A DNA stretch of 64,000 bases. Source: Pseudoroseomonas cervicalis (GTDB taxonomy: Bacteria; Pseudomonadota; Alphaproteobacteria; Acetobacterales; Acetobacteraceae). A program made the translations under genes and the position numbers. Where the stretch lies: the NCBI RefSeq assembly GCF_030818485.1, contig NZ_JAUTAJ010000005.1, positions 124,001 through 188,000 on the forward strand, given 5' to 3'. Positions 14,475-31,655 of the stretch are shown here, piece by piece. The first letter of the stretch is position 1; each line of letters opens with the position of its first letter. Under the pieces are notes generated by a model, which was not told where the DNA came from, ran no database searches, and saw nothing but the letters and a program-made list of their open reading frames with translations.

Positions 14475-14590
14475 GTTCTTTTTTGAAAAAAAGAACCAAA
14501 AAACTTTTTTTCAGTTTGGCGTCCCGCCTGGACGGAAGACGGCGGCAGCCTGAAAAAGTCTTTTTGCTTCTTTTTCTTCAGAAAAAGAAG
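14475..14590. repeat. Three-hairpin AT-rich intergenic repeat, copy 1
   Basis: This block is built from three successive inverted repeats. Hairpin A spans 14475-14496 (GTTCTT...AAGAAC). Hairpin B has outer arms ACTTTTTTTCAG and CTGAAAAAGT with GGCGTCCCGCC inside. Hairpin C is CTTCTTTTTC (14567-14576) / GAAAAAGAAG (14581-14590) with a TTCA loop. A second copy at 20301-20418 matches closely in sequence and order. The T/A runs on both strands mean it could act as a bidirectional terminator. Here it sits between two same-strand SDR genes, so it may reduce expression of the downstream genes. Confidence 0.8.
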
Positions 14591-14614
14591 ATATCTTTAG
14601 CTGAAGAAGAAACC

Positions 14615-15450: not shown

Positions 15451-15518
15451 ACAATACAGACGGCCGCGGCGGGGCTCAAGCCATCCGGATGCCGACGGGC
15501 CGCATCAGGAGGACCTCC

Positions 15519-17845: not shown

Positions 17846-18806
17846 TGCCGGCCTCGCGGGTGATGCGGATCCAGCGATCCACATCCTCCGCGATGCGCCG
17901 GCGCAGCACCTCCGGCCCGCGCTCCTCCGCCGGCGGCGCGGTGGTCGCCAGGTCGGCGAAGCGCGCCGTGACATTGGGGCTGGCCAGGGCTGCCTCCACC
18001 GCGCGCACCAGCCGCTGCACCGCGGCCTCCGGCATGCCGCGCGGCCCGACAATGGCGTTCCAGATCACCATGTCGAAGCCGGGCACACCGGCCTCGGCGA
18101 AGGTCGGCACATCGGGCAGCTGCGCCAGGCGCTGCGGCCCGGTCACCGCCAGGGCGAAGGCGGTGTTGCCGCGATGCGCCGGGATCATCGTCACGGTCTG
18201 GTCGATCACCGCATCAACGGTGCCCGAGGCCAGGTCGCCCATCGCCGGGCCGGCGCCGCGATAGGGCACCAGCGTCGCCTGCAACTTCGTCAGGGACAGC
18301 AGATAGGCGGGCGCCAGATGGCCGGTGGTGCCGGTGCCCGGCGTGCCGAAGGTGACGCCCTCGCCGCGTTCGCGGATGCGCGACAGCAGCGTGCGCAGAT
18401 CGCGCACCCCGGATCGGGTGCTGACCGCGATCACCATCGGCACATTGGCGACGATCGAGATCGGCGTCAGATCCTGGCGCGGGTCGAAGCCCAGCTCGCG
18501 CGTGATCGCGACATTCGCCGCCAGCGAGCCGAGATTGCCGAAGCCGATGACATAGCCATCCGAGGGCGAGCGCACCAGGCGCTGCATGCCGACGATGCTG
18601 CCCGCGCCGCTGACATTCTCCACCACGACATTCTGGCCGAGATCGGCCGCCATGCCCTGCGCCATCAGCCGCCCCAGCGCGTCCAGCGTGCCGCCGGGGG
18701 CGGAGGGCACGATCATGGTCACGGGCCGCGCCGGAAACTCCTGCGCCAGGGCCGGGCCGCCGCAGCACAGCGCCAGGATGGCGGCGCACCGGAATACTGC
18801 TCGCAT
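17832..18806 (-). CDS. Tripartite tricarboxylate transporter substrate-binding protein (Bug family)
   Basis: This 324-residue Bug protein starts with a short Sec-type leader (AILALCCGGPALAQ) and shows ARPVTMIVPSAPGGTLDALGR, VVVENVSGAGSIVGMQ, TLVPYRGAGPAMGDLASG and LPDVPTFAEAGVPGFDMVIW. The usual pair of Gly residues before Thr-Asp is shortened to PGGTLD. The ATG at 18806 follows CAGGAGGAACCC; an in-frame ATG at 18893 lacks support. It is divergent from the carboxymuconolactone-decarboxylase-like gene, and a GntR-type operator candidate lies between them. It is likely the binding component of the GntR-linked island. Confidence 0.9.
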   Translation of the reverse strand: MRAVFRCAAILALCCGGPALAQEFPARPVTMIVPSAPGGTLDALGRLMAQGMAADLGQNVVVENVSGAGSIVGMQRLVRSPSDGYVIGFGNLGSLAANVAITRELGFDPRQDLTPISIVANVPMVIAVSTRSGVRDLRTLLSRIRERGEGVTFGTPGTGTTGHLAPAYLLSLTKLQATLVPYRGAGPAMGDLASGTVDAVIDQTVTMIPAHRGNTAFALAVTGPQRLAQLPDVPTFAEAGVPGFDMVIWNAIVGPRGMPEAAVQRLVRAVEAALASPNVTARFADLATTAPPAEERGPEVLRRRIAEDVDRWIRITREAGITPQ

Positions 18807-18898
18807 GGGATGGGTTCCTCCTGCCGGTTCTTCTTGGCGCGGCGTCGTTGCGCCGCGTGCCCGCAGGCAACCATGCCGCCGGGGTGCCGGCAATCTTT

Positions 18899-18915
18899 TT
18901 GTCTAACAATCTTAC
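18899..18915. promoter_or_regulatory. GntR-type operator candidate, site 1
   Basis: TTGTCTAACAA (18899-18909) fits the TTGTnnnACAA dyad typical of FadR-subfamily GntR operators, and it overlaps ACAATCTTAC (18906-18915), the reverse of GTAAGATTGT. The same 10-mer recurs at 21789 and 30910. It lies in the divergent region between the Bug gene (start 18806) and the carboxymuconolactone-decarboxylase-like gene (start 19022). Confidence 0.65.
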
Positions 18916-19021
18916 GACGCCTTGCCCTCCCCTCCACCCGGCCATAAGCTCGCGGCCGGGAAGAAGCGCCAGCCGGGCGCGGCGCAGGGCCGCGCACCGC
19001 ACCGCGCAGGAGTGTCCAAGA

Positions 19022-19354
19022 ATGAGCAAGCCGATCCCGCAATCCGCGCAGCGCGACCGCGTGCGCAAGACCGTGCCCGCCCTGGTCGCCTATACCGAGG
19101 GCGTGGTCTACAGCGATCTCTGGGAGCGCGAGGATCTCTCCAAGCGCGACCGCAGCCTGGTGACGGTGGCCGCCCTCGTTGCCACCTACCGCCCCGAGCA
19201 GCTCAGCGTGCATATCGGCCGCGCCCTCGACAATGGCGTGACGCAGGAGGAGATCGCCGGCGCCATCACGCATCTCGCCTTCTATGCCGGCTGGCCGGCG
19301 GCCATGTCGGCGGCGCAGGTGCTGACCGAAGTGCTCGAGAAGCGGGGCGCGTGA
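19022..19354 (+). CDS. Carboxymuconolactone decarboxylase family protein
   Basis: This 110-residue protein belongs to the CMD/AhpD-like family of small all-helical proteins that includes gamma-carboxymuconolactone decarboxylase and peroxidase-type members. It has RDRSLVTVAALVATYRPEQLSVHI, DNGVTQEEIAGAITHLAFYAGWPAAMSA, the usual core of the family. It lacks the CxxC of AhpD-type peroxidases, so a decarboxylase/lactonase-like or unknown role is more likely. A GCAGGAG sequence precedes the ATG at 19022. Its TGA overlaps a GTG of the following dehydrogenase. The same gene pair occurs in mirror image at 20423-21750. Confidence 0.88.
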   Translation: MSKPIPQSAQRDRVRKTVPALVAYTEGVVYSDLWEREDLSKRDRSLVTVAALVATYRPEQLSVHIGRALDNGVTQEEIAGAITHLAFYAGWPAAMSAAQVLTEVLEKRGA

Positions 19355-19359
19355 GCGCC

Positions 19360-20292
19360 ATGCGTGTCGGATTCATCGGCCTCGGCACAATGGGCGCCAG
19401 CATGGCCGCCAATCTGGCCAGGGCGGAGGGCGTCGCGCTCACCGTGCACGACATGCGGCGCGAGGCCGCCGCCGCGCTGCTGGAGGGCGGCGCGCAATGG
19501 GCGGAGAGCCCCGCGGCGCTCGGCGCGGGCTGCGAGGTGGTGTTCACCTCCCTCCCCGGCCCGAAGGAGGTCGAGGCGGTGGGCAGCGCGCTGATCGGCA
19601 GCATGGCGCGGGGCGGCATCATCGTCGACATCTCGACCAATGCGGTTTCCGCCGTGCGCGCGCTGCATGCGGCGGCGGCGGAGCGCGGGCTGCATGTGCT
19701 GGACGCGCCGATCAGCGGCGGCCCGCGCGGTGCCGCCAGCCGCAAGCTGGCCTTCTTCGTCGGCGGCGACCGCGCCGTCTTCGACCGCGTGCGGCCGCTG
19801 CTCAATGCCATGGGCGACCGCGCCATTCTGGTCGGCGAGATCGGCGCCGGCAGCATCGCCAAGCTGGCGCACAACCTCTCCGGCTATGCGCTGAACGCCA
19901 TCATGGCGGAGGTCTTCGCCATGGGCGCCAAGGCGGGGCTGGAGCCGCTGGCGCTCTACGCCGCCATCCGCCAGGGCGTGCATGGCCGCCGCCGCACCTA
20001 TGACGGCGTAACCGAGCAATTCCTGCCCAACAGCTACGACCCGCCGGCCTTCCAGCTGCGCCTGGCGCACAAGGATGTCGCCCTGGCCTGCGCGCTGGGG
20101 CGCGAGGTCGGCGTGCCGATGCGCTTCGCGGCGCTGACGCTGGAAGAGATGACCGAGGCGCTGAACCGCGGCTGGGGCCATCGGGATTCCCGCTCCGCCA
20201 TGCTGCTGGAGCTGGAGCGCGCGGGGGTGGAGATCGCCGTGGATCGCGCGAAGATGCAGGCGGTGATCGATGCGGACGGAAAAGACTTTTAG
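19360..20292 (+). CDS. NAD(P)-dependent oxidoreductase, 3-hydroxyisobutyrate dehydrogenase family
   Basis: This 310-residue beta-hydroxyacid dehydrogenase carries MRVGFIGLGTMGASMAANL for nucleotide binding, LDAPISGGPRGAASRKLAFF as the substrate loop and IAKLAHNLSGYALN with the catalytic Lys. I use the ATG at 19360; a GTG at 19351 that overlaps the preceding stop would add three residues and is equally possible. It is in an operon with the CMD-like protein at 19022. A three-hairpin repeat lies directly behind its stop and separates it from a convergent paralogue. The likely role is oxidation of a hydroxy acid in the GntR-linked pathway. Confidence 0.87.
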   Translation: MRVGFIGLGTMGASMAANLARAEGVALTVHDMRREAAAALLEGGAQWAESPAALGAGCEVVFTSLPGPKEVEAVGSALIGSMARGGIIVDISTNAVSAVRALHAAAAERGLHVLDAPISGGPRGAASRKLAFFVGGDRAVFDRVRPLLNAMGDRAILVGEIGAGSIAKLAHNLSGYALNAIMAEVFAMGAKAGLEPLALYAAIRQGVHGRRRTYDGVTEQFLPNSYDPPAFQLRLAHKDVALACALGREVGVPMRFAALTLEEMTEALNRGWGHRDSRSAMLLELERAGVEIAVDRAKMQAVIDADGKDF

Positions 20293-20300
20293 AAAGTAAG

Positions 20301-20418
20301 GGTTCTTTTTTGGAAAAAAGAACCAAAAAACTTTTGTCAGTTGGCGTCCCGCCTCAGGCCTTGGGAGGGACGCCAGACTGACAAAGTCTTTTTGCTTCTT
20401 TTTCTTCAGAAAAAGAAG
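20301..20418. repeat. Three-hairpin AT-rich intergenic repeat, copy 2
   Basis: This copy has hairpin A at 20301-20324 (GGTTCTTTTTT / AAAAAAGAACC-type arms), hairpin B with 21-base arms starting ACTTTTGTCAG at 20330 and returning as CTGACAAAGT ending 20387, and hairpin C at 20395-20418 (CTTCTTTTTC / GAAAAAGAAG). It fills the 130-base gap between two convergent dehydrogenase genes, where it can terminate both. Hairpin B is better preserved than in copy 1. The high similarity to the 14475-14590 copy, despite different neighbours, marks it as a dispersed element. Confidence 0.82.
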
Positions 20419-20422
20419 ATTC

Positions 20423-21349
20423 TTAGCTGGCTCTGTTGCCGCCGCCCAGCGTCTCGCCCACCAGCTTCTCCGAGAACTGCGCCATCGCCGTATGGTCCAT
20501 GCCCGGGCCGAGCAGGCCGACGGCACTGGCCCACATCTCGCGGCACAGCGCGGCGAAGGGCACGGGCGTGCCGGTCTCCTTCGCCACTTCGAGCGCGACG
20601 GAGACATCCTTCGCCATCAGCTCCAGCCCGAAGCCGGCATCGAAGCGGCGCGACAGCACGAACTGCTTGAACTTCTTCTGCGTGCTGTTGTTCATGCCCG
20701 TCGAGTTGTTCAGCACATCGACCATCTGCGCGGGATCGAGCCCGAAGCGCTGGCCGATCAGCAGCGCCTCCACCCCGATCAGGAAGCCCGCCGCGCCCAT
20801 CAGGTTGTTCAGCGCCTTCATCGCCTGGCCGGCGCCGATGCCGCCCACATGCGTCAGATTGTTGCCCATGGCGCGCAGCACCGCATCGGCGCGCGCGACA
20901 TCGGCGGCCTCGCCGCCCAGCATGATCGCCAGCTCGCCACTGCGCGCGCGCGGCACACCGCCCGAGACCGGCGCATCGATCATGGCGACACCGCGCGGCG
21001 TCAGCGCTTCCGCGAAGCCGCGCGTCGCCGTCGGCACGCCGGAGCTCATCTCGATCAGCAGCGCGCCCGGCGACAGCGCATCGCCCATCGCCTCGATCGC
21101 CTGGCCGACATGCTTCGAGGTCGGCAGGATGGTGATGACGGCATCCGCGCCCCGCGCCGCGGTGGCGGCATCGGCAGCGGCCTCGCCACCCACCTCGGTG
21201 GCGAAGCGCGCGGAGCGCTCGGCGGCGACATCGCAGACCACGACATCGAAGCCGGCGCCGACCAGCCGCGCCGCCATCGGCCAGCCCATATTGCCGATGC
21301 CGATGAAGGCGATGCGGCGCAGCGCGCCGCCCGGAGAGGCGGCGCTCAC
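20423..21349 (-). CDS. NAD(P)-dependent oxidoreductase, 3-hydroxyisobutyrate dehydrogenase family
   Basis: This 308-residue beta-hydroxyacid dehydrogenase has IAFIGIGNMGWPMAARL, the DAPVSGGVPRARSGELAIM loop and the catalytic Lys in MKALNNLMGAAGF, then NNSTGMNNST and AKDVSVALEVAKETG near the C-terminus. It starts at a GTG (21349) that overlaps the TGA of the upstream CMD-like gene, so the two are translationally coupled. The gene pair is the mirror image of 19022-20292. Its sequence is clearly diverged from the other two paralogues in the window, suggesting different substrates or steps. Confidence 0.87.
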   Translation of the reverse strand: MSAASPGGALRRIAFIGIGNMGWPMAARLVGAGFDVVVCDVAAERSARFATEVGGEAAADAATAARGADAVITILPTSKHVGQAIEAMGDALSPGALLIEMSSGVPTATRGFAEALTPRGVAMIDAPVSGGVPRARSGELAIMLGGEAADVARADAVLRAMGNNLTHVGGIGAGQAMKALNNLMGAAGFLIGVEALLIGQRFGLDPAQMVDVLNNSTGMNNSTQKKFKQFVLSRRFDAGFGLELMAKDVSVALEVAKETGTPVPFAALCREMWASAVGLLGPGMDHTAMAQFSEKLVGETLGGGNRAS

Positions 21350-21750
21350 TTCTTCGCCGGCTCGCCGGTCAGCGCGCCTTCCTTCACCAGCACCTCATGC
21401 GCCGCCTTGAAGGCGTCGAGCCCGGCCGGGATGCCGCAATAGACCGTGGCGTGCAGCAGGATCTCCTTGATCTCCTCGACGGTGACGCCGTTGGTCAGCG
21501 CGCCTTTCACATGCAGCTTGATCTCCGGCGTCTTGCCCAGCGCTGTCAGCATGGCGAGGTTCAGCATGGAGCGCGTCTTGCGGTCGAGCCCGGGGCGCGT
21601 CCAGGCATAGCCCCAGCACCATTCGGTGGTGATGTTCTGGAAGGCCATCATGAAATCATCGGCCTTGGCGATGCTGCCATCCACATAGTCGGGACCCAGC
21701 ACGGCGCGGCGGACCTCGAGCCCGCGTTGGAACAGCGTGTCGTCGGACAT
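21346..21750 (-). CDS. Carboxymuconolactone decarboxylase family protein (PcaC-like)
   Basis: This 134-residue protein resembles gamma-carboxymuconolactone decarboxylase (PcaC) more than the shorter family member at 19022. It has MSDDTLFQRGLEVRRAVLG at the start, DRKTRSMLNLAMLTALGK, GALTNGVTVEEIKEILLHATVYCGIPAG and the C-terminal AFKAAHEVL. The ATG at 21750 follows GAGGGAG; the in-frame start at 21774 is less likely. A true PcaC role would place it in the beta-ketoadipate branch, but no other pca gene is nearby, so I infer decarboxylation or isomerisation of a related lactone. Confidence 0.88.
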   Translation of the reverse strand: MSDDTLFQRGLEVRRAVLGPDYVDGSIAKADDFMMAFQNITTEWCWGYAWTRPGLDRKTRSMLNLAMLTALGKTPEIKLHVKGALTNGVTVEEIKEILLHATVYCGIPAGLDAFKAAHEVLVKEGALTGEPAKK

Positions 21751-21788
21751 TTCTGGCGTCTCCCTCAACGTCATGATGCTAGAGTTTT

Positions 21789-21805
21789 GTAAGATTGTCT
21801 GTCAA
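21789..21805. promoter_or_regulatory. GntR-type operator candidate, site 2
   Basis: GTAAGATTGT (21789-21798) is followed by CTGTCAA, giving TTGTCTGTCAA (21795-21805), one mismatch from TTGTnnnACAA. Aligned with site 1 on the other strand, 15 of 17 positions match through GTAAGATTGTnnGnCAA. It lies in the divergent region between the PcaC-like gene (start 21750) and the GntR gene (start 21911), which fits autoregulation plus control of the enzyme operon. Confidence 0.66.
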
Positions 21806-21910
21806 TACGCCGCACGCCGATGCCCGTTTCGCTGGACGCCACGGACCGGCCCGTCTAATTGTGCGACGCGGCGGCCGCGGGATGGCGCCTACAGGGAATG
21901 CGAGACAGAG

Positions 21911-22615
21911 ATGCCGGACGATTCGCTGCGGATCACCCCCCAGCCGGTGCGTCGCCAGGTCGAGGAAAGGCTGCGCGACGCCATCATCACCAGCCGCTTC
22001 GCGCCCGGCGAACACCTGTCCGACCGCATGCTGTGCGACCTGTTCGGCGTCAGCCGCGGCGTGATCCGCGAAGCAGTGCGGCTGCTGGAAGCCGAGGGGC
22101 TGATCGTCGTGGTGCCCAATCGCGGCCCCTTCGTCGCCTATCTCTCCGCCGCCGAGGCCACCCAGGTCTATGAAGTGCGCGCGGTGCTCGAGGCCCTGGC
22201 CGGCCAGGGCTTCGCCGAGCGCGCCTCGGTCGAGGAGATCGCCGAGCTGCGCGCGGTGTTCGAGGAGCTGGCGGCAACGAAGCCCGGCGCCGACCGCATG
22301 GTGCTGCTCGGCCTGAAGCGCCGCTTCTACGACGTCATGCTGCGCGGCTGCCGCAACGCCTATGTGGCGCGCATGCTGGACCAGCTGCTGAACCGCAATT
22401 CCCAGCTGCGCGCCACGACGCTGTCCGACCCCTCGCGCCTGCCCAACACCGTCGCCGAGATCCGCCGCATCGTCGAGGCGATCGAACGCCGCGACCGCGA
22501 GGGCGCCTGGCATGCCTGCCGCGAGCATGTGCTGCAGGCGGCGCAGGTGGCGCTGCGCATCCTGAACGAGCGCGCCAGCGGCGCCCCGGCCCCGGCGGAG
22601 GCGCCGCCCGGCTGA
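21911..22615 (+). CDS. GntR-family (FadR/FCD subfamily) transcriptional regulator
   Basis: This 234-residue regulator has an N-terminal winged helix (RDAIITSRFAPGEHLSDRMLCD-type start, then LFGVSRGVIREAVRLLEAEGLI) and a C-terminal FCD ligand-binding domain from about residue 80, with metal-site-type His/Asp positions less obvious than in FadR relatives. The ATG at 21911 follows a weak purine stretch (GAGACAGAG). It sits in the middle of the catabolic island and shares a divergent promoter with the PcaC-like operon. The recurring GTAAGATTGT sites at 18.9, 21.8 and 30.9 kb are its most likely targets; the effector is probably the imported acid or a CoA/lactone intermediate. Confidence 0.91.
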   Translation: MPDDSLRITPQPVRRQVEERLRDAIITSRFAPGEHLSDRMLCDLFGVSRGVIREAVRLLEAEGLIVVVPNRGPFVAYLSAAEATQVYEVRAVLEALAGQGFAERASVEEIAELRAVFEELAATKPGADRMVLLGLKRRFYDVMLRGCRNAYVARMLDQLLNRNSQLRATTLSDPSRLPNTVAEIRRIVEAIERRDREGAWHACREHVLQAAQVALRILNERASGAPAPAEAPPG

Positions 22616-22632
22616 GACGGCGCCGCCCCCTC

Positions 22633-22959
22633 TCACCGCACCGCGGAGAAGGCTGTCGGCTGCAGGATCAGATTGCTGATGCTGGCGACGATCGGGCCGT
22701 TGCGCTCCGTCTCGGCCCGCCGCGCGATCCATTCCGGATCGGCCTGGAAGGCGTTCCATTTCTGCTCGCGCTCGGCGAGCGAATCCCATTCCAGCAGATA
22801 GTAGAGATCCTGGTTGGAATCGCCGATGGCGACGGTCCAGAACCCCGCCTGGCGGATGCCGTGCTTCTGCCAGATGCCCAGCGTGATCGTCTCGAAGCGC
22901 TTCAGCAGATCCGGCAGCCGGCCGGAGACGCAGTGATAGATGCGCAACTCATGGATCAT
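22633..22959 (-). CDS. NIPSNAP family protein
   Basis: This 108-residue protein matches the NIPSNAP fold, a dimeric ferredoxin-like domain of poorly known role often found in catabolic clusters. The start MIHELRIYHCVSGRLPDLLKRF and the LYYLLEWDSLAEREQKWNAFQADPEW-like middle (Trp-rich, shown in part) are characteristic. The ATG at 22959 is preceded by GGGAGGGGC. It is the last gene of the eight-gene minus-strand operon that begins with the ABC importer binding protein. An enzymatic role on a small acid or lactone is possible but not shown. Confidence 0.85.
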   Translation of the reverse strand: MIHELRIYHCVSGRLPDLLKRFETITLGIWQKHGIRQAGFWTVAIGDSNQDLYYLLEWDSLAEREQKWNAFQADPEWIARRAETERNGPIVASISNLILQPTAFSAVR

Positions 22960-23026
22960 GGATAAGCCCCTCCCTTCTGGGCGATGAATGTTGCGGTGCG
23001 CGGCACACGTTGCGCAAGCGCGGCGG

Positions 23027-24367
23027 TCATGCGGCGGGCTCGGCCAGGCGCAGCGCCGCGCCGACATCGTCCAGCGTCGCGAGACCGGCGAAAGCCGCTT
23101 CCAGCTGCGCCGCGCGCGCCCCGCCCAGCCGCTCCGCCGCCGCGGCGCGGCAGCGCTGGCGCACCATGGCCGCATCGGCGGGCAGCAGGTCTGGCAGCGC
23201 GGCGGAGAGGCGCCGCCCATCCCGCAGCGTGACGATCACCTCCGCACCCTGGCGCGCCGGGAAGGCGGCGGTCGCCGCGTCATCCGCCTCCAGCCGCGCC
23301 AGCCCGACCAGGCGCAACAGCGCGGGATCGGCCGGCAGTGCGAAATGCGCCTCCTCCACCGCGCCATGGCACAGCGCGGCGGCGACGCAGAAGGGGATGC
23401 TCATCTTCGCCTGCAGCACCCGCGCGAAGGGCCCGGTGCCGTCACAGCCCGGATAGCGCACCGCTGCCTCCGAGGCGCGGATGGTGATGGCGGCGATGGA
23501 ATCCGCCTCCAGCCCGCCCGCCTCCTGGCGCAGTCGCTGCGCCGCCTGGGCCGGCGTCTGCGCGAAATTGCAGAGCGGCAGCGCCTTGCGGAACACCTGC
23601 GACACTTCCGAGGCACCGCCGGCGAAAAGCGGCAGCGCAACGGGCGGCGCGGCGCCGGCGGCGGCGAACAGCCCCGCCGGGCCGTCCAGCGCCGTCGCCG
23701 AACCCTCCGCGCCGGCCTCGGCCATGGCGAGCACCGCCAGCGCATTGCGCGCGGCGAAGCCGGGGTGGAAGAACATCTCGTCGCCGCCATCGCGCGGCCA
23801 TTCGTTCAACCCGCCCACCGTGTTGGCCGCCAGGCAGAGGGCGGAGGCGGTCTGCGCCGCTGTCAGGCCCAGCAGCCTGGCGCCGGCGGCGACCGCGGCC
23901 AGCGGCCCGGTCCAGCCCGTGGGCCGCCATTGCCGGCTGAAGCGCGGATTGACCAAAGCGCGGCCGAGAGCGGCGCCGACCTCATAGCCGGTCGCGGCGG
24001 CCGCGATGAAGGCCTGGCCCTCGACAGGGTGGCGCTGCGCCAGCGCCAGCAGCACCGGCAGCACCACCACACCCAGATGGCTGACGGCGCCGGCATGCAT
24101 ATCCTCGCGCACCAGGCCGTGGCCGGCCGCCGCATTGGCGAAGGCGGCGGCGCCAGGCGAGGCGCGGGCCGAGAGGCCGATGATGCTGGCCTCCCCGGGC
24201 TCGGTCGCGGCCAGGGCGCGGGCCGCGCGGCTCGGCGCCGTGTCGCGCGCTTCCAGCGCGCAGGCGATGAAGTCCAGCAGGCAGAGCGTCACCTCCGGCG
24301 CCACGGCGGGTGGCGGCGCTGCCTGCAGCAATTCCTCCGCCAGGCGCGCGGCGAGCGGCGGGCTCAC
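23027..24367 (-). CDS. MmgE/PrpD family protein
   Basis: This 446-residue MmgE/PrpD protein is a second member of the dehydratase/decarboxylase family in the window, distinct from the one at 16502. It shows LDFIACALEARDTAPSRAA, AAGHGLVREDMHAGAVSHLG in place of the usual DYDDTH region, NTVGGLNEWPRDGGDEMFFHPGFAARN-type active-site region (in part) and AALCHGAVEEAHF. The GTG at 24367 overlaps the TGA of the upstream SDR (GTGA). As part of the GntR-linked operon it probably dehydrates or isomerises the pathway intermediate. The HAG in place of DDTH is notable and argues for a substrate other than 2-methylcitrate. Confidence 0.86.
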   Translation of the reverse strand: MSPPLAARLAEELLQAAPPPAVAPEVTLCLLDFIACALEARDTAPSRAARALAATEPGEASIIGLSARASPGAAAFANAAAGHGLVREDMHAGAVSHLGVVVLPVLLALAQRHPVEGQAFIAAAATGYEVGAALGRALVNPRFSRQWRPTGWTGPLAAVAAGARLLGLTAAQTASALCLAANTVGGLNEWPRDGGDEMFFHPGFAARNALAVLAMAEAGAEGSATALDGPAGLFAAAGAAPPVALPLFAGGASEVSQVFRKALPLCNFAQTPAQAAQRLRQEAGGLEADSIAAITIRASEAAVRYPGCDGTGPFARVLQAKMSIPFCVAAALCHGAVEEAHFALPADPALLRLVGLARLEADDAATAAFPARQGAEVIVTLRDGRRLSAALPDLLPADAAMVRQRCRAAAAERLGGARAAQLEAAFAGLATLDDVGAALRLAEPAA

Positions 24368-25083
24368 TGCATCACCATGCCGCCATCCGCCACCACCGTG
24401 CTGCCATGCAAATAGGCGGCGGCGGGGGAGAGCAGCCAGGCGATCACCTCGGCGATCTCCTCCGGCGTGCCCAGGCGGTGGAAGCTGGTCATGCCCTCGA
24501 TGCGCGCGCGGATCTCGGGATTGGCCAGCGGTGCTGCGGCAAAGGGCGTGTCGATCATGCCGGGCGCCACGGTGTTGACGGCGATGCCGCGCGGACCCAG
24601 TTCGCGCGCCGCCGATTTGGTCAGCGTCATCACCGCGCCCTTGCTGGTGGCGTAGGAGGCAGTGCCGGCGAGGCCACCCCCGCGCAGGCCCGCGACACTG
24701 CCCACGGTGCAGATGCGCCCGCCGCGCCGCATGCGCTTCGCGGCCTCGCGCAGGCAGAGGAAGGTGCCGATGACATTGACCTCGTGCACACGCCGAAAAG
24801 TCTCGGCCGTGCTGTCGAAGAAGGGCGTGGTCTCGTAGATGCCGGCGCAGGTGGCCAGCGCGTCGATACCGCCCAGCGCCGAATCCGCTTCCGCGATGGC
24901 GGCGATCACCGCCGCCTCATCCGCCACGTCGACGGCGATCACGGGCTGGTCACCGGCGACGGCGCGGGCCGCCTCGGCATTGCGGTCCAGGCAGGCGACG
25001 CGCCAGCCCCCCGCGACCAGGCGCCGCACGGTCGCGGCGCCGATGCCGCTGCCGGCGCCGGTGACGATGGCCCGCCCGCTCAC
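24364..25083 (-). CDS. SDR-family oxidoreductase
   Basis: This 239-residue classical SDR has GAGSGIGAATV for NAD(P) binding, ATCAGIYETTP, catalytic Ser in TVGSVAGL and YATSK as the YxxxK pair, then VNTVAPGMIDTPF and ADGGMVMQ at the end. It starts at a GTG (25083) overlapping the TGA of the upstream hydrolase. It is translationally coupled on both sides, so it must act in the same pathway as the lactonase-like hydrolase and the PrpD protein, probably oxidising an alcohol intermediate. Confidence 0.88.
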   Translation of the reverse strand: MSGRAIVTGAGSGIGAATVRRLVAGGWRVACLDRNAEAARAVAGDQPVIAVDVADEAAVIAAIAEADSALGGIDALATCAGIYETTPFFDSTAETFRRVHEVNVIGTFLCLREAAKRMRRGGRICTVGSVAGLRGGGLAGTASYATSKGAVMTLTKSAARELGPRGIAVNTVAPGMIDTPFAAAPLANPEIRARIEGMTSFHRLGTPEEIAEVIAWLLSPAAAYLHGSTVVADGGMVMQ

Positions 25084-25889
25084 GCCGCATCCTCCCGCGG
25101 CGCCACATCCAGCCGCACCGCGATACCCTCCAGCTCTGGCGAGACGGCGGGGTAGCGGCGCATCACCTCCGGATCGTGGCCGGGGATGATATGCGCCGGG
25201 CTCGGTGCCGCGCGGCGCAGGATCTCGTGGCTTTCCAGCATGTCGGCGATGCTGACGCAGGTCGGGAAGGGCCTGCCCTTCTCCATATTCTCGTAGAAAT
25301 GCGTCACGTCGGAGGCCAGCACGACGGGGCCGCGCGCCGTGTTGACGCGCACAAATTGCAGCCCGGCCGAATGGCCCGGCGCCGGATGCAGGGTGATGCC
25401 GGGCGCCAGCTCCACCTGCCCGTTATAGAGCCGCACCCGCTCGGCGAAGTTCAGCCGGACGATGCCGACGACATCCTCCACCTCGAAGGAATGGCGCAGG
25501 AAGCCGTGCCGCATATGCCGCCCGCAGGCGAAATGCAGGTCGGCCTCCTGCAGATGGAACTGGGCCACCGGGAAGCGGTGGAAATTGCCGACATGGTCGT
25601 AATGCAGATGCGTCAGCACGACATCCTGCACCGTGTCGACATCGCAGCCGAGCAGGCGCAGCGCATCGATCGGGTCGCGCAGATAGTTGCGCCTGCGGCG
25701 GGCGGCGACCTCGGCGGTGAAGCCGGAATCGACGACGATGCTGCGCCCTTCGCCCTTGATGAGCCAGACGAAATAATCCATCGGCATCGGGCCGTCATGC
25801 GGGTCACCGCCGATGAAATGCTCGGAACGCATCGCCTCGCGCATGGCGTAGCGCAGGGCGAAGACCTCATAGGTCGGGGTGTCGGTCAT
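25080..25889 (-). CDS. MBL-fold hydrolase, N-acyl homoserine lactonase-like
   Basis: This 269-residue metallo-beta-lactamase-fold protein has the dinuclear-zinc motif HLHYDH (His94, His96, Asp98, His99), followed by APGHSAG, DVTHFYENM and HIIPGHDPEV, which supply the remaining ligands. This motif set is shared with AHL and other lactonases (AttM/AiiA branch). In this operon, next to CMD-type and PrpD-type genes, hydrolysis of a catabolic lactone is more plausible than quorum quenching. The ATG at 25889 is preceded by CCAGG. It is coupled to the following SDR by a 4-bp overlap. Confidence 0.87.
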   Translation of the reverse strand: MTDTPTYEVFALRYAMREAMRSEHFIGGDPHDGPMPMDYFVWLIKGEGRSIVVDSGFTAEVAARRRRNYLRDPIDALRLLGCDVDTVQDVVLTHLHYDHVGNFHRFPVAQFHLQEADLHFACGRHMRHGFLRHSFEVEDVVGIVRLNFAERVRLYNGQVELAPGITLHPAPGHSAGLQFVRVNTARGPVVLASDVTHFYENMEKGRPFPTCVSIADMLESHEILRRAAPSPAHIIPGHDPEVMRRYPAVSPELEGIAVRLDVAPREDAA

Positions 25890-25899
25890 CCTGGATTCC

Positions 25900-26607
25900 T
25901 CATGCGCCGAGATAGGCTTCGCGCAGGCCCTTGTCGGCCAGCAGCTCGGAGCGCGTGCCGCGCATCACCACCTCCCCGGTGGAGAGCACATAGCCGCGGT
26001 CGCAGGCCTCGATCGCCTCGATGGCGCGCTGCTCGACGATCAGCACGGTCAGCCCCGCCTCGCGGTTGAGCCGCTGCACCGCCTCGAAGATCGTGTCGAC
26101 GATGGTGGGGGCGAGGCCCATGGAGGGCTCGTCCAACATCAGCAGGCGGGGTTCGGAGGCGATGCCGCGGCCGATCGCCAGCATCTGCTGCTGCCCGCCG
26201 GAGAGCGAGCCGGCCAGCTGGTTCCGCCGCTCCCGCAGCACCGGGAACAAATCGTAGCAGCGCTCCAGGCTGCGTCCCGCCGCATTGCGGTCACGCAGCG
26301 CGATGGTGCCGAGCTGCAGATTCTCCTCAACGCTGAGATCGCTGAAGACCTGCCGCCCCTCCGGCACATGGGCGATGCCTCGATGCGGACGCTCCGCCGG
26401 CGGCAGGCGGTCGAGCTGCTCGCCCTCCAGCGTGATGCGGCCGGCGGCGAGCGGCACCACGCCGGAGATCGCCTTGAACAGCGTCGTCTTGCCGGCGCCG
26501 TTCGGGCCGATCACGGCCACGACCTCGCCCTGGTTCACCTGCAGCGACACGTCGCGCAGCGCCACTAGGCCGCCATAGCGGATCTCGACCCCTTCAAGTG
26601 CCAGCAT
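25900..26607 (-). CDS. ABC transporter ATP-binding protein, branched-chain amino acid type (LivF-like)
   Basis: This 235-residue ATPase of the HAAT (branched-chain amino acid and organic acid) importer family has Walker A GPNGAGKT, the signature LSGGQQQ, Walker B LLMLDEPSMGLAP and the LivF-typical HVPEGRQVFSDLSVEENL. The ATG at 26607 overlaps the end of the fused permease/ATPase gene by 14 bases. It forms the second ATPase of a heterodimer with the C-terminal half of that fusion. The substrate is inferred to be an organic or aromatic acid given the enzymes downstream in the operon. Confidence 0.93.
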   Translation of the reverse strand: MLALEGVEIRYGGLVALRDVSLQVNQGEVVAVIGPNGAGKTTLFKAISGVVPLAAGRITLEGEQLDRLPPAERPHRGIAHVPEGRQVFSDLSVEENLQLGTIALRDRNAAGRSLERCYDLFPVLRERRNQLAGSLSGGQQQMLAIGRGIASEPRLLMLDEPSMGLAPTIVDTIFEAVQRLNREAGLTVLIVEQRAIEAIEACDRGYVLSTGEVVMRGTRSELLADKGLREAYLGA

Positions 26608-28357
26608 GTTCGACCCATTTCTTGCCGAGATAGGCCGAGACCACCTCAGGCTCGCGCACCACCTTCTCCGGCAGGCCCTCGGCCAGGTTGCGGCCACGGT
26701 CCAGCACCACGAAGCGGGTGGCCAGCCGCACCATGGCGTTCATGGTGTGCTCGATGATCACGACCGTCATGCCCTCCGCCGCCAGGCGCCGGATCTGGCG
26801 CATCATCACCTCGACATCGGCGCTGGAGAGGCCGGCGAAGCTCTCATCCATCAGCACCAGCTTGGGGTTGGAGGCGAGCGCGCGGGCGAGTTCCATCAGC
26901 CGCAGCTCGCGATTGGTCAGCTGCGAGGCCGGCACCAGCGCGCGATCGGCGAGCCCCACGCGCTCCAGCATGGCGCGCGCCGCCTCCAGCGCCGCATGAT
27001 CGTCGCTGTTGGCGCCGAAGGCGCCGACCACGACGTTCTCCAGCAGCGTCAGCCGCGGGAAGGCGCGCACCGTCTGGAAAGTGCGGGCGATGCCCAGCGC
27101 GCTGACCTCCTGCGGCGCGCGGCCGAGCAGCTCGACACCCTCCAGCTTCGCCGAGCCCGCGCTGGCGCGCACGATGCCGTTCAGCACGTTGAACAGCGTC
27201 GTCTTGCCGGCGCCATTCGGGCCGATGATGCCGAGGATCTCGCCCCGCCGCACCTCCAGCGAGACGTCGGACAGCGCCTGCAGACCGCCGAAGCGCACCG
27301 AGATGTCGCGCACCACCAGCAGCGCCTCGCCCGGCGCCTCGTGATAGTCGGGGCGCGGCACCGCCGCTTCCGGCGGCGGAGGCGCGGCGAGATCGGGCGC
27401 CGCCGGCTGCCCCACAAAATGGTCGCGCACCGCCCAGTAGATGCCCTGCGGGCGGAACAGGATCACCGCCATGATGGCCACGCCGAAGATCACGCCCTGC
27501 ATGCCCGGCAGCCGCGCGCCGATGGTGGCGTTCAGCAGCTCGGCCATCGGCACCAGGATGACGGCGCCGATCACCGGGCCCCAGGCGGCGCCGAGCCCGC
27601 CGAACATCGACACGATCAGCCCCTGTGCCGAGACCAGCATGCCGAACACCGAATGCGGCGTGACCACCAGCACCACCGTGGCGTAGAGCGCGCCGGCCAG
27701 CCCCGCGATGCCGCCCGAGATGGCGCTGGCCACCAGCTTGGTGCGCAGCGTCGCGATGCCGGCGCATTGCGCCGCCAGCTCGTTCTGCCGGATGGCGAAG
27801 AGCTGCAGGCCGAGACGCGTGCGCTCGATGCGCAGGCAGACATAGAGCGCGATGCCGAGCGCGCCGAGGATGATCAGCGGCATCACCCGCGGATCGCTGA
27901 ACTGCATGTAGTGCAGCGGATCCTCGCGCTTCAGCGGCAGCGCCAGCTCGTGCCAGCCGGCCCAGGTGAAGACCGGGATCAGCGCCAGCGGATAGGCCAG
28001 CATCGCCAGGCTGAAGTAATGGCCCTTCAGGCGAAAGGTGACGGCGCCGATCAGCACCGCCATCAGCGCGCCCACCGCCATGCCCAGCAGGCAGCCGATC
28101 CAGGGCGTCACGCCGTAATCATGGAACAGGATGGCGACGGTGTAGGCGCCGCCGCCGAAGAAGGCGGCGTGGCCGAAGCTGACCAGGCCGCCATAGCCGC
28201 CCAGGATGTTCCAGGACAGGCCGAGCATCGCCCAGATGCCGACCATGGAGATCACCAGCAGCTCATAGCCGCTGATCAGGAAGGTGGCGGCGACGCCGCA
28301 GAGCAGCAGCGCCAGCAGCACCAGGCGCTGGCGGCCGGAGGGGGCGAGGAATTGCAT
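26594..28357 (-). CDS. Fused ABC permease and ATPase (LivM-LivG type)
   Basis: This 587-residue protein joins a LivM-type membrane permease (residues 1 to about 325, with SWNILGGYGGLVSFGHAAFFGGGAY in part as the family hallmark) to a LivG-type ATPase (about 345-587). The ATPase has Walker A GPNGAGKT, Q-loop region IARTFQTVRAFPRLTLLENV-like, Walker B KLVLMDESFAGLS and switch His in IIEHTMNAM. The signature LSGGQ is replaced by LTNRE, so this half depends on partner LivF for a canonical composite site. Its ATG shares one base with the upstream LivH stop. Confidence 0.92.
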   Translation of the reverse strand: MQFLAPSGRQRLVLLALLLCGVAATFLISGYELLVISMVGIWAMLGLSWNILGGYGGLVSFGHAAFFGGGAYTVAILFHDYGVTPWIGCLLGMAVGALMAVLIGAVTFRLKGHYFSLAMLAYPLALIPVFTWAGWHELALPLKREDPLHYMQFSDPRVMPLIILGALGIALYVCLRIERTRLGLQLFAIRQNELAAQCAGIATLRTKLVASAISGGIAGLAGALYATVVLVVTPHSVFGMLVSAQGLIVSMFGGLGAAWGPVIGAVILVPMAELLNATIGARLPGMQGVIFGVAIMAVILFRPQGIYWAVRDHFVGQPAAPDLAAPPPPEAAVPRPDYHEAPGEALLVVRDISVRFGGLQALSDVSLEVRRGEILGIIGPNGAGKTTLFNVLNGIVRASAGSAKLEGVELLGRAPQEVSALGIARTFQTVRAFPRLTLLENVVVGAFGANSDDHAALEAARAMLERVGLADRALVPASQLTNRELRLMELARALASNPKLVLMDESFAGLSSADVEVMMRQIRRLAAEGMTVVIIEHTMNAMVRLATRFVVLDRGRNLAEGLPEKVVREPEVVSAYLGKKWVEHAGT

Positions 28358-29310
28358 CAGGCGCGCTCCACGCCACGGCCGAACAGGCCCTGCGGCCGGA
28401 TCAGCAGGACGGCCAGGAAGACGATGAACACCGCCGTGTTCTGCAGCTGCGGCGGCAGCACCAGGTTGGAGAGCTGCTGCACCAGGCCGATGATCAGCCC
28501 GCCCAGGAAGGCGCCGCCGACGCTACCCATGCCGCCCAGCACCACGCCGGCATACATGATGATGACGAAGTCGAAGCCGGTATAGGCCTGGAAGGGATAG
28601 AAGGTGGCGACGCAGACACCTGCGACCGCGGTCAGCGCCAGGCCGATGCCGAAGGCGGTGCGGAAGGCGCGGTCGACATTGATGCCCATATAGAGCGCGG
28701 CGATCGGGTTGTTGGCCACCGCGCGCAGCTGGCGGCCGATGCCGCTGCGCGCCATCAGCAGGATCACCAGCAGCACCGCGGCCACCGCCATCAGAGCCGA
28801 CCAGGAGCGCGCCTGGTTGATGAACAGCATGATGTCGCCGCTGGCGAGATCCAGCGTCCAGGAGCGTGTCGCCGCCTCGTTCGGGATCGAGACCGGGGAG
28901 GAGCCGAACAGCATCAGCCCGCCATTCTGCAGCACCAGCGACAGGCCGAGCGTCAGGATCAGCTGGCCGGTATGGCCGGCATCCGCCGTGCCGATGGCGC
29001 GCGCGCCGCTGACGCGGCTGACCAGCGCCCAATGCGTCGCGGCGCCGATGCCGTAGAACAGGGCGGCGGCGGCGCAGGCCACCAGCATGGCGATGGCGAA
29101 GGCCCAGGAGCGGCCCGGCGCCAGCAGCGCGACACCGGCGAGGCCGGTGTACATGGCCAGCATCATGAAGTCGCCCTGGGCGAAGTTGATCACCCGCATG
29201 ATGCCGAAGATCAGGCCAAGGCCCGCGCACATCAGCCCGTAGAGGCAGCCCAGCAGCAGGCCGGCCGCCAGGATCTGCAGCAGGGCCTCGATTTCACCCG
29301 CATAGCTCAT
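28357..29310 (-). CDS. ABC transporter permease, branched-chain amino acid type (LivH-like)
   Basis: This 317-residue inner-membrane permease has eight or so hydrophobic segments and the LivH marks GLLLGCLYGLMCAGLGLIFG, MRVINFAQGDFMMLAMY, the EAA-like region AVANNPIAALYMGINVDRAFRTAF (shown in part) and AGVVLGGMGSVGGAFLGG. The ATG at 29310 lies 11 bases behind the binding-protein stop, without a strong ribosome site, so its translation is probably coupled. It pairs with the LivM half of the downstream fusion to form the channel. Confidence 0.92.
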   Translation of the reverse strand: MSYAGEIEALLQILAAGLLLGCLYGLMCAGLGLIFGIMRVINFAQGDFMMLAMYTGLAGVALLAPGRSWAFAIAMLVACAAAALFYGIGAATHWALVSRVSGARAIGTADAGHTGQLILTLGLSLVLQNGGLMLFGSSPVSIPNEAATRSWTLDLASGDIMLFINQARSWSALMAVAAVLLVILLMARSGIGRQLRAVANNPIAALYMGINVDRAFRTAFGIGLALTAVAGVCVATFYPFQAYTGFDFVIIMYAGVVLGGMGSVGGAFLGGLIIGLVQQLSNLVLPPQLQNTAVFIVFLAVLLIRPQGLFGRGVERA

Positions 29311-29321
29311 GGCGCGGCCGA

Positions 29322-30551
29322 TCAGCCCGGCCGCGGCCAGGAGAGCTCGGCCTCGGCGTCCGCCTCGGGCAGCACGGTCAGCGGGCGGCCATTCTTCCAC
29401 TGGTAGACGGCGGGCACCGGATTGGCGCGGCGGCCATTGCGCTCGAAGCGCAGGCGTTCGCCGAGGAACAGGCGCGCCGGGCCCTCGGCGGTGTCGGTGG
29501 CCAATAGGGCGGCCATCAGCGCGTCGCGATCGGCGCGGCCGGCGCGCTCCAGCGCATCGGCCACCAGCAGCACATGGCCGTAATTGGACAGCGTGTCCTG
29601 GATCAGCCAGGGCTCGCCGGCGCGCTGCAGCAGGTTCTGGTTCAGCGCCGCCTGCTGCTTCGAGGTCCAGTTGCCGGCCACGCCGATGACGCCTTCCAGG
29701 TAGTTGGCGCCCATGTTCTTCAGCATCTCCGGCGTGCCCCAGTTCGCCGAGGGCGCGATCACCGGCACCTTGCCCTGGCCCAGGCCGAATTCGGTCAGGG
29801 TCTGCAGCAGCAGGCGGGAATCCGAGGTCGCCGTGGTGCCGAGCAGCACCAGATCCGGCCGGCTGCGGCGCATGCGCTGGATCAGCGGCGCGGCATCCGA
29901 CAGCGGCACGCTGAAATTCTCGTCCATCACCGTGGTCAGGCCGAGCCGCGCGAAGCCGCCCTCGCGCAGCGGCTTCATGTTCGCCTGGTTCACCGCCGTG
30001 TCGTCATTGATGCAGGCGATGGTGGCGGGCTTCTTGCCGGCGGCGCGCTCGGCCATGGCCAGCAGCGGCCGCAGCGCCGCGGGGATGATGCTGCTGGAGG
30101 GCGGCGAGGTCGCGATGACGTAGTGGAAGCCGCGCTCGGTGATGGTGTCGGCCCAGGAGAGGGTGATCCAGGGCAGCTTGGCGCGCTCGGTCACCTCGGT
30201 CGCTGCCAGGGTGAAGGAGGAGGCCCAGGCGCCAAGGCCCGCGACCAGCCCGCGATCAGCGACCAGCCGCTGCGCGGCGGCCGTCACCTGCTCCACATTG
30301 GCCCCCGCATCGGCGATGCTGAGCTCCAGCCGCGCGCCGCCCAGCGCCTTGATGCCGCCCTGGCGGTTGATGTCCTCCACCGCCAGCACGGCGCCGAGCC
30401 GCTCCAGCTCGCCCTGCCGCGCGAAGGGGCCGGAAAGCGGCGTCAGCAGTGCCAGCCGCACCGTGGATGGTTGCGCATGGGCGCTGGCCTGGATGAAGGC
30501 AGGCGCCGCCAGGGCGCCGCCCAACAGGGCGCGCCGGGTGATCCTCGTCAT
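29322..30551 (-). CDS. ABC transporter substrate-binding protein (Peripla_BP_6, LivJ-like)
   Basis: This 409-residue periplasmic protein of the branched-chain amino acid binding family starts with a leader RRALLGGALAAPAFIQASAHA (Tat-like, MTRITRR). It contains LALLTPLSGPFARQGELERLG and GGIKALGGARLELSIADAG, the start of the type 1 fold, and GVIGVAGNWTSKQQ later. The ATG at 30551 follows GGAGGAGACGG; about 60 further in-frame codons upstream have no such signal. It opens the eight-gene operon reading to 22633. The promoter lies in the 600-base gap with GntR-type sites. The ligand is unknown. Confidence 0.91.
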   Translation of the reverse strand: MTRITRRALLGGALAAPAFIQASAHAQPSTVRLALLTPLSGPFARQGELERLGAVLAVEDINRQGGIKALGGARLELSIADAGANVEQVTAAAQRLVADRGLVAGLGAWASSFTLAATEVTERAKLPWITLSWADTITERGFHYVIATSPPSSSIIPAALRPLLAMAERAAGKKPATIACINDDTAVNQANMKPLREGGFARLGLTTVMDENFSVPLSDAAPLIQRMRRSRPDLVLLGTTATSDSRLLLQTLTEFGLGQGKVPVIAPSANWGTPEMLKNMGANYLEGVIGVAGNWTSKQQAALNQNLLQRAGEPWLIQDTLSNYGHVLLVADALERAGRADRDALMAALLATDTAEGPARLFLGERLRFERNGRRANPVPAVYQWKNGRPLTVLPEADAEAELSWPRPG

Positions 30552-30783
30552 GACCGTCTCCTCCAGGCCGGGCTTGGCGCCGGCTTGTGCGTGCACGGGC
30601 GCGTCCGGCGCCCTGTCCCGGATGGGCTGGGCGGCTCCGGGACGGAGCGCGAGGGCGGGGAGAGGGCGCGCCGCCGGCGGCGTAGTCGCCGGGCGGCCCG
30701 GCCCTCTCATCCGGCCGGCTGCACGGCCCCGGAAGGACACATTCCGTGTGGTTGAGCGGAGCCTAGGCCCGGGTTTCGAAGGC

Positions 30784-30796
30784 TGTCAATATGACA
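30784..30796. promoter_or_regulatory. Palindrome TGTCA-ATA-TGACA upstream of the ABC operon
   Basis: TGTCA (30784-30788) and TGACA (30792-30796) form a perfect dyad with a three-base centre. Its right side continues ATCTGCC, so the reverse strand reads AGATTGTC as in the GntR-type sites at 21.8 kb. It lies about 230 bases upstream of the ABC binding-protein start and could be a weaker or auxiliary site of the same regulator. Confidence 0.45.
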
Positions 30797-30878
30797 ATCT
30801 GCCCTGGGCGACCATCGGTAGATCTGAAGGATGGCCTTCAAAGCGTTGATATTAAAACATAAATACAAAGGCCCTGTC

Positions 30879-30907
30879 AGCGACGCCCGGAGGGGCGCGT
30901 CGCTTTT
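30879..30907 (+). terminator. Hairpin plus T-run with no upstream plus-strand gene
   Basis: AGCGACGCCC (30879-30888) pairs with GGGGCGCGTCGCT (ending 30904) through a stem with a small bulge, followed by TTTT (30904-30907). In form this is an intrinsic terminator for plus-strand transcription. No plus-strand coding region ends nearby, so it could end a short RNA made from the AT-rich island or act against read-through. Confidence 0.4.
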
Positions 30908-30909
30908 CA

Positions 30910-30926
30910 GTAAGATTGTAGGACGA
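30910..30926. promoter_or_regulatory. GntR-type operator candidate, site 3
   Basis: GTAAGATTGT (30910-30919) is identical to the 10-mer at 21789 and to the reverse of 18906-18915. It continues AGGACGA, giving TTGTAGGACGA (30916-30926), one mismatch from TTGTnnnACAA. It lies about 360 bases upstream of the ABC operon start, so it either marks a distant promoter or an auxiliary site. Confidence 0.58.
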
Positions 30927-31121
30927 TTTTGGCATCAGCCGGGGAGATTCCGCCTGCGGCTACCCCCGCCAGGCCAAGGCCGGCCATGCCCGAGGTCACG
31001 CAACAGGGCCCTTCCGGCGCGGGCATCCGCGCCGCGCTGCCTCACCGCAGGAAAGCGGGGCCCAGGGGCGGCATCGGCCTGCCCCTCCCACGCCGTCGCG
31101 GCATGCCGCGCCAAGGCGCGG

Positions 31122-31625: not shown

Positions 31626-31655
31626 TGGACAGGGTCGCGCCCGGCTCGGTATGAA
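31626..31655 (+). promoter_or_regulatory. Candidate sigma-70-type promoter of nikABCDE
   Basis: TGGACA (31626-31631) and TATGAA (31650-31655) are spaced by 18 bases and resemble -35 and -10 elements. The -10 element overlaps the left half of the NikR box, which would explain repression when nickel is plentiful. The nikA ATG is 42 bases downstream. Confidence 0.5.

Follow-up and report, generated by a model that had tools for sequence, protein, structure and literature searches.

What does it mean that one AT-rich 10-mer, GTAAGATTGT, stands in three intergenic gaps of a catabolic gene island that also encodes a GntR-family regulator? The question was raised by a 64,000-nucleotide (nt) stretch of the Pseudoroseomonas cervicalis genome (assembly GCF_030818485.1, contig NZ_JAUTAJ010000005.1, C5:124001-188000), here called the window. 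An earlier note, made from the sequence alone, had placed exact copies at 18906-18915 (minus strand), 21789-21798 and 30910-30919 (both plus strand) and had interpreted them as marks of a regulon around the gntR gene at 21911. All three copies were found at these coordinates and on these strands. A search for frequent unrelated copies, which the note had named as the observation that would count against it, detected no fourth one in the genome (4,889,768 bases in 5 contigs, 95% complete). The reading of the three sites as marks of a GntR-linked regulon is supported by phylogenetic footprinting, by regulator presence and absence, and by the genome count, and we consider it highly probable that each 10-mer copy forms part of an operator for the FCD-type GntR product of the gene at 21911. 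What did not stand is the 10-mer as the operator itself: the unit is a 13-bp dyad.

From the composition of the window, 0.47 (mononucleotide) or 0.16 (Markov-1) genome-wide copies of GTAAGATTGT were expected. No copy occurred in 100 dinucleotide-preserving shuffles of the window, and the backward control sequence had 0 copies in the whole genome. As a look-elsewhere check, 10-mers with at least seven A/T that recur at least three times in the window were counted. There were six, and the other five stem from one repeated palindromic element at about 14.47-14.59 and 20.28-20.42 kb. Two views of the 10-mer were rejected. It is not a conserved unit, since 0/32 stretches from relatives carry it (14 loci, L041-L054, plus 18 stretches from nine family genomes, with five genomes in both sets), and it is not an oriented -10 element, since its orientation relative to the genes varies among the sites.

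The conserved element is the dyad ATTGTCNG(A/T)CAAT, which lies over the right half of the 10-mer, while a weaker TG(T) half-box covers the left half. As the earlier note had proposed, every 10-mer copy overlaps a dyad; these are located at 18898-18910, 21794-21806 and 30915-30927, each one mismatch from ATTGTNNNACAAT. Dyads within one mismatch of ATTGTNNNACAAT number five genome-wide; at two mismatches the window holds 5 against 2.2 expected, a count that is not unusual. In 14 relatives (12 of the loci L041-L054, plus G059 and G007), 11 of the 13 dyad positions were invariant, one was constant in 13/14, and the centre was free. The one-mismatch scan that selected these sites favours constancy at the ten positions it specifies; its pattern prescribed neither the C and G flanking the dyad centre (13/14 and 14/14) nor the constant placement. 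The flanks were near background except for T-6 and G-5 (13/14 each) and for A-18, T-14 and A-13 (12/14 each), the last three being part of a -10 box. The GT of the 10-mer thus corresponds to an accessory half-box, at a distance of 10-11 nt from the centre of the dyad. At copy 2, the 10-mer consists of half-box GTAAG and left arm ATTGT, and the T and G of the half-box are each present in 13/14 relatives. GntR-family sites accompanied by an additional, weaker half-box at 7-12 nt from their centre are described in the available text of Suvorova et al. 2015 (PMC4494728).

To locate sites of this type, we used a symmetrised position weight matrix (PWM) built from the sites of the 14 relatives, with the window excluded. 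Ranks 1, 2 and 3 in the 64-kb window were the three 10-mer sites: predicted operator 2 (ATTGTCTGTCAAT, 21794-21806, score 27.0), in the gap between the PcaC-like/dehydrogenase unit and gntR; predicted operator 1 (TTTGTCTAACAAT, 18898-18910, 16.7), in the gap between the Bug gene and the CMD/dehydrogenase unit; and predicted operator 3 (ATTGTAGGACGAT, 30915-30927, 14.35), upstream of the ABC-lactonase-SDR-PrpD operon. The scores of the first, second and third site were reached in 0, 1 and 0 of 200 Markov shuffles, and an 8-site matrix from other genomes returned the three sites in the same order. Of 200 family genomes, 13 (P. cervicalis included) encode a relative of the regulator, in four cases with just 40-51% identity. 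The 14 loci L041-L054 each carry a relative with 65-94% identity (72-94% in the Roseomonas group, 65% in the two Methylobacterium loci). These island loci contained 28 sites scoring at least 16, 12 of which had served to train the matrix; 200 column-permuted matrices gave a mean of 0.37 and a maximum of 3 such sites. A dyad with at most one mismatch was present 94-141 bp before gntR in 12/14 loci, the two without it being the Methylobacterium loci L052 and L053.

The two other gaps were conserved as well. The divergent Bug/CMD gap had a site scoring at least 11.4 in 8/8 stretches that hold both genes, the window included. In the three loci with a closely orthologous ABC operon, the aligned counterparts of operator 3 scored 14.35 (window), 11.0 (L041) and 16.9 (L043). 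In Roseomonas sp. E05 (L043), each of the three gaps has its site at one mismatch, and L048 and L050 have extra sites before NIPSNAP and before an SBP (periplasmic binding protein) fragment or a PrpD/ABC unit. In Methylobacterium sp. J-030 (L053, 9506-12545), five dyads scoring 16.9-18.6 surround the 65% gntR relative and PcaC-like, lactonase and ABC genes; the regulon seems to extend outside the family there, perhaps by transfer. Two distant dyads of the P. cervicalis genome were rejected as candidates. That at C2:144486 sits within an HlyD-like reading frame. That at C4:1462581 lies upstream of a luciferase-like gene, just past an apparent tRNA (read from the sequence, no tRNA search having been run). 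The luciferase-like gene occurs in 4/5 genomes; three of the loci had nothing above 3.5, and the best site of the fourth (12.3) was more than 1.4 kb from the gene.

Does the operator follow the regulator? The PcaC-like gene occurs in 103/200 family genomes, and the presence/absence comparison covered the best 30 of these 103 loci. Eight of the 30 genomes were regulator-positive, defined by a match of E 1e-40 or better, and 22 were without the regulator. In each of the eight positive genomes, an operator scoring at least 18.6 was located 29-80 bp in front of the PcaC-like gene. Among the 22 others, three, all of genus g62, scored at least 16 and 19 scored at most 5.2; in one of these 19, G191, just 55 bp upstream were available for scanning. 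The hypergeometric value for this split was 2.8e-5, with shared ancestry ignored. Sites from five of these eight positive genomes had gone into the first matrix. On repetition with a matrix that drew on none of the 30 genomes, scores were at least 18.6 in 8/8, 17.6-19.9 in 3/22 and at most 6.8 in 19/22. The most telling cases are two in which the genes are separated. In Plastoroseomonas hellenica (G168; L042, and L147 on its contig C4), the PcaC-like gene has operator TTTGTCCGACAAT 80 bp upstream and gntR lies on another contig. In G006, the operator is present and the PcaC-like gene and gntR, whose match contains one in-frame stop, are 4 kb apart.

This co-occurrence (8/8 versus 3/22, unlinked cases included), together with the position of the strongest site in the gntR gap itself, makes it improbable that the dyads are operators of another regulator, be it a second FCD-type GntR protein or a member of another family, with the neighbouring gntR acting on some other target. 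Such an alternative could draw on the fact that the consensus is not confined to this FCD protein but is found for at least one more, AlkR, a GntR/VanR repressor of alkB2 in Pseudomonas aeruginosa SJTD-1 (PDB 9ISW; available text of PMC12042122), and that the LysR protein CrgA is reported to bind the same alkB2 promoter. It could also draw on three genomes of genus g62 with an operator-like site, two of which have 28-36% matches to the regulator and the third none. In g62 loci L123, L125 and L126, PcaC-like/dehydrogenase/lactonase operons carry the operator-like sequence ATTGACAGA(C/T)AA at the place of the TTGAC.

The position of operator 2 bears on how the proposed regulator would act. Read in the direction of the PcaC-like/dehydrogenase unit, operator 2 is ATTGACNGACAAT, and a promoter is predicted at 21776-21805 (minus strand), with the -35 box TTGACA inside the operator, an 18-bp spacer and the -10 box TAGCAT. 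In the alignment of operator 2, 12/15 sequences have TTGAC, exactly 18 bp and TAnnnT, this spacing having been selected after the alignment was viewed. Among the 1050 hexamer positions in the flanks, 13 read TANNNT, and 12 of the 13 are at the -10 place. The TTGAC inside the operator would explain the constant T in its right arm. A protein bound over the -35 box would block RNA polymerase, implying repression. TTGAC was detected within 100 bp in 20/22 genomes without the regulator and in 7/8 with it (0.05 expected per 100 bp), whereas the outer arm GACAA beside TTGAC was detected in 1/22 and 6/8, respectively.

It is for this reason very improbable that the conserved sequence is a mere promoter element, a -35 TTGAC with its context, even if operator 2 does contain TTGACA with a well-placed -10 box: regulator-less genomes keep TTGAC and mostly lack the outer arm, both arms are constant in relatives with the regulator, and operators 1 and 3 share the dyad without that -35 placement, as judged by eye. 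Least probable of all, to the point of being negligible, is chance recurrence or descent from repeat remnants, since the 10-mer, albeit picked after the window had been read and from a window in which other AT-rich 10-mers recur through a repeat element, has no further copy in 4.89 Mb, is recovered at the same three places by matrices from relatives, and lies in predicted operators conserved in other species, outside which similarity to relatives falls off.

Several observations weigh against assigning the three operators to the 21911 protein. The compared genomes, being related, are not independent, and for six of the eight positives the scanned gap doubles as the gntR gap. The three g62 genomes have their operator-like site with no close regulator relative; there, the regulator may have been lost, or a paralogue may act in its stead. 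In the Methylobacterium locus L052, every score stays below 11. For operator 1, no overlap with a clear conserved promoter was seen. Operator 3 is weak, lies 370 bp from the SBP start, and is almost equalled (14.08) by a match at 31655 that is not conserved; a score near 14 alone is therefore no proof, and site 3 rests on conservation. In the L041 gap, moreover, another place scores 12.7, above the 11.0 of the counterpart of operator 3. TANNNT follows TTGAC at 17-19 bp in 0/22 genomes without the regulator versus 4/8 with it, so a -35-like word is common to both groups and the identity of the promoter in the regulator-less genomes is not established. Finally, the regulator has Arg at position 28 of its helix-turn-helix (HTH), as aligned by eye, although its operator has TTGT; Arg at this position prefers TGGT over TTGT according to the available text of Suvorova et al. 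(PMC4494728). The match at 31655 was also considered as a fourth operator, upstream of a family-5 binding protein (31697), and was rejected: an orthologue was found in 2/7 genomes, and neither locus had a score above 7.2.

A second conserved element was detected upstream of the ABC operon. The 14-mer ATTGTCATATTGAC (30785-30798, minus strand) holds the predicted -35 box of this operon, followed after 18 bp by TAGGCT. It is identical in the window, L041 and L043, and TAGGCT stands 18 bp on in all three species. Its distance to operator 3, start to start, is 129, 128 and 129 bp, though the intervening DNA has diverged. This constancy suggests looping or phased binding, as seen in three related species. 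In the window the element has an inverted symmetry of its own, TGTCATATTGACA. Possibly it serves the same regulator as a second site with a different spacing.

Binding, effector, substrate and the direction of control, also that at operators 1 and 3, we infer as follows. The 21911 protein would bind the operators, probably as a dimer, recognising the dyad ATTGTCNG(A/T)CAAT, from which sites 1 and 3 depart at one or two positions, and the weaker half-box 10-11 nt from the centre. When the effector is absent, it would occupy operator 2, covering the -35 box in front of the PcaC-like/dehydrogenase unit, and operators 1 and 3 before the Bug gene, the CMD/dehydrogenase unit and the ABC-lactonase-SDR-PrpD-NIPSNAP operon. 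Bound protein would repress these units and probably its own gene too, and a carboxylate or lactone intermediate may release it.

The proposed repressor (21911-22615, plus strand) is a GntR/FCD protein of 234 amino acids. It matched PF00392, the N-terminal GntR winged HTH, with 63.2 bits (cut-off 27) and PF07729, the C-terminal FCD domain, with 87.2 bits (cut-off 24.3). Residues R49 and R53 were kept in 18/18 sequences. Its best full-length match is PDB 7xp0/7xp1, with GntR and FCD aligned over nearly the entire length (E 2.3e-21). The positions aligned with the presumed metal-binding His residues of 7xp0, mapped on this alignment with the ligand pattern given in the available text of PMC7674646, are Tyr, Ile/Met/Leu/Val and His in 18/18 sequences. 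Two of the three ligands are replaced, and metal-dependent effector binding therefore seems unlikely. The three-His site is usual and not universal in FCD proteins; E. coli FadR, according to the same text, is without it. The regulator thus lacks the three-His pattern of the FCD subfamily, which is not required for membership. The TKGT-N3-ACMA pattern, in contrast, would be present as TTGT-CNG-ACAA or TCAA in relatives and window, given that these are the regulator's operators. Its Asn at position 59 goes with A/T, an association that is not significant in Suvorova et al. (available text of PMC4494728). Two homologues carry the database label 'trigonelline degradation regulator', which was not used.

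Fourteen genes lie behind the three sites, in agreement with the regulon size given earlier: the Bug gene, CMD plus dehydrogenase, dehydrogenase plus PcaC-like, gntR, and the eight genes from SBP to NIPSNAP. The gene context also held and was refined in two points: 21750 is the more likely start of the PcaC-like gene, and a predicted promoter lies between site 3 and the SBP start. Around operator 1 are the Bug/TctC-type binding protein (17832-18806, minus strand; Pfam TctC) and, on the plus strand, a CMD-family protein (19022-19354; Pfam CMD) and a beta-hydroxyacid, HIBADH-like dehydrogenase (19351-20292; Pfam NAD_binding_2/NAD_binding_11, below the NCBIfam equivalog cut-offs). The other genes, gntR apart, are on the minus strand. 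Behind operator 2 are the PcaC-like CMD protein (21346-21750), its start moved to 21750 with many relatives aligning from an internal ATG, and a second HIBADH-like dehydrogenase (20423-21349, by profile matches). The ABC operon begins with the SBP (29322-30551), followed by a permease (28357-29316) and a fused permease-ATPase (26594-28357), both of branched-chain type, an ABC ATPase (25900-26616), a metallo-beta-lactamase-fold, lactonase-like hydrolase (25080-25889; Pfam Lactamase_B, weakly similar to acyl-homoserine lactone (AHL) lactonases and pyridoxolactonases), an SDR oxidoreductase (24364-25083) and an MmgE/PrpD-family protein (23027-24367). These assignments rest on profile matches. A NIPSNAP protein (22633-22962; Pfam NIPSNAP) is probably the final gene, as inferred from a 64-bp gap.

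The enzymes scanned with NCBIfam all fell below equivalog cut-offs. The PcaC equivalog scored 139.0 bits for 21346-21750 and 64.7 bits for 19022-19354 (cut-off 155.7), and the PrpD equivalog (methylcitrate dehydratase) scored 44.7 and 26.3 bits for PrpD-family proteins (cut-off 950). With scores under these cut-offs, a methylcitrate cycle or a protocatechuate pathway as the function of the island is unsupported. The combination of decarboxylase-like protein, hydroxyacid dehydrogenase, lactonase-fold enzyme and two acid-type uptake systems suggests a lactone-forming carboxylate substrate. Decarboxylase-like, dehydrogenase and lactonase-fold genes stand together in four mapped regulator-less loci (L123 and L125-L127). 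A second pair of Bug and PrpD-family genes is located near the island at 15516-17845, with similar genes in L043 and L046-L050; the matrix scan of the window found no operator-type site above 10 before this pair. A composite palindromic element rich in A/T, GTTCTTTTTTGAAAAAAAGAAC ... CTTCTTTTTCTTCAGAAAAAGAAG, stands twice between genes, at 14475-14592 and 20302-20420. The second palindrome, CTTCTTTTTCTTCAGAAAAAGAAG, was listed at 58 exact places in the 4.89-Mb GC-rich genome, with none for the backward control; at up to two mismatches there were 69 forward and 70 reverse matches, many sites being counted on both strands.

The island offers a testable set of regulator, operators and targets for a catabolic cluster that recurs in Roseomonas-group genomes and partly in Methylobacterium. 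The regulon is of a textbook kind, with the regulator group and its targets as a new example. A possible comparative case is the operator laid over a -35 box, as regulator-less genomes mostly keep TTGAC and not the outer arm. Speculatively, and with considerable doubt, one may picture an undescribed pathway for a lactone-forming carboxylic acid, its core a CMD decarboxylase-like protein, a HIBADH-like dehydrogenase and a lactonase-fold hydrolase, whose genes exist without the regulator elsewhere in the family. To this, a repressor of FCD type in which two of the three usual metal ligands are missing would have been added in the Roseomonas group, via an operator built around an existing -35 box, and looping would join the two elements 128-129 bp apart at the ABC operon. 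Our literature search did not find Roseomonas, GntR and regulon treated together, nor any description of the regulator group, of its targets or of the overlap with the -35 box.

How does this system compare with known ones? The best full-length match, 7xp0/7xp1, we take to be PmiR of P. aeruginosa, presumably with the methylcitrate operon as its target. It differs from the regulator group in having His where the latter has Tyr and Ile/Met/Leu/Val. The presumed methylcitrate target differs as well, the PrpD-family proteins of the island being far under the methylcitrate dehydratase cut-offs.

The FadR subfamily, as treated in the available text of Suvorova et al. 2015 (PMC4494728), resembles the system in its TKGT-N3-ACMA palindrome, in the divergent arrangement of regulator and target with the site in the gap, and in the half-box at 7-12 nt. 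It differs in that the 21911 protein combines Arg 28 (aligned by eye) with TTGT and not with the statistically preferred TGGT. Atu1419, a tetrameric GntR/VanR repressor of hydroxycinnamic acid degradation in Agrobacterium fabrum (available text of PMC7797058), is likewise an FCD regulator of a carboxylate catabolic region with paired sites, for which looping was demonstrated over 190 bp. Its palindrome is ATGTATACAT and it binds zinc, whereas the 21911 protein has two of the three usual His residues replaced.

AlkR shares with our system an FCD-type GntR protein, a palindrome in the gap between regulator and target, and the role of repressor, here proposed. In the available text of PMC12042122, mutation of its Arg45 and Arg49 lowered DNA binding. 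These residues apparently are kept in the 21911 protein and would correspond to R49 and R53 if the equal-length match, whose alignment was not displayed, is ungapped, the offset being deduced. The sequence relation of the two proteins is weak (E 3.3e-7). The target of AlkR is an alkane monooxygenase and its effector a long-chain acyl-CoA, and its site is said to cover -10 regions and not the -35 (PMC12042122); Pfam scanning of the 14 island genes found no monooxygenase and no adjacent alkB. The DNase I footprint of AlkR is ATTGTCAGACAAT, and ATTGTCXXACAAT is conserved among its kin (PMC12042122). Compared with ATTGTCNGACAAT, site 2 is one base off and sites 1 and 3 are two bases off. The AlkR footprint shows that the operator type found in the island is one already known.

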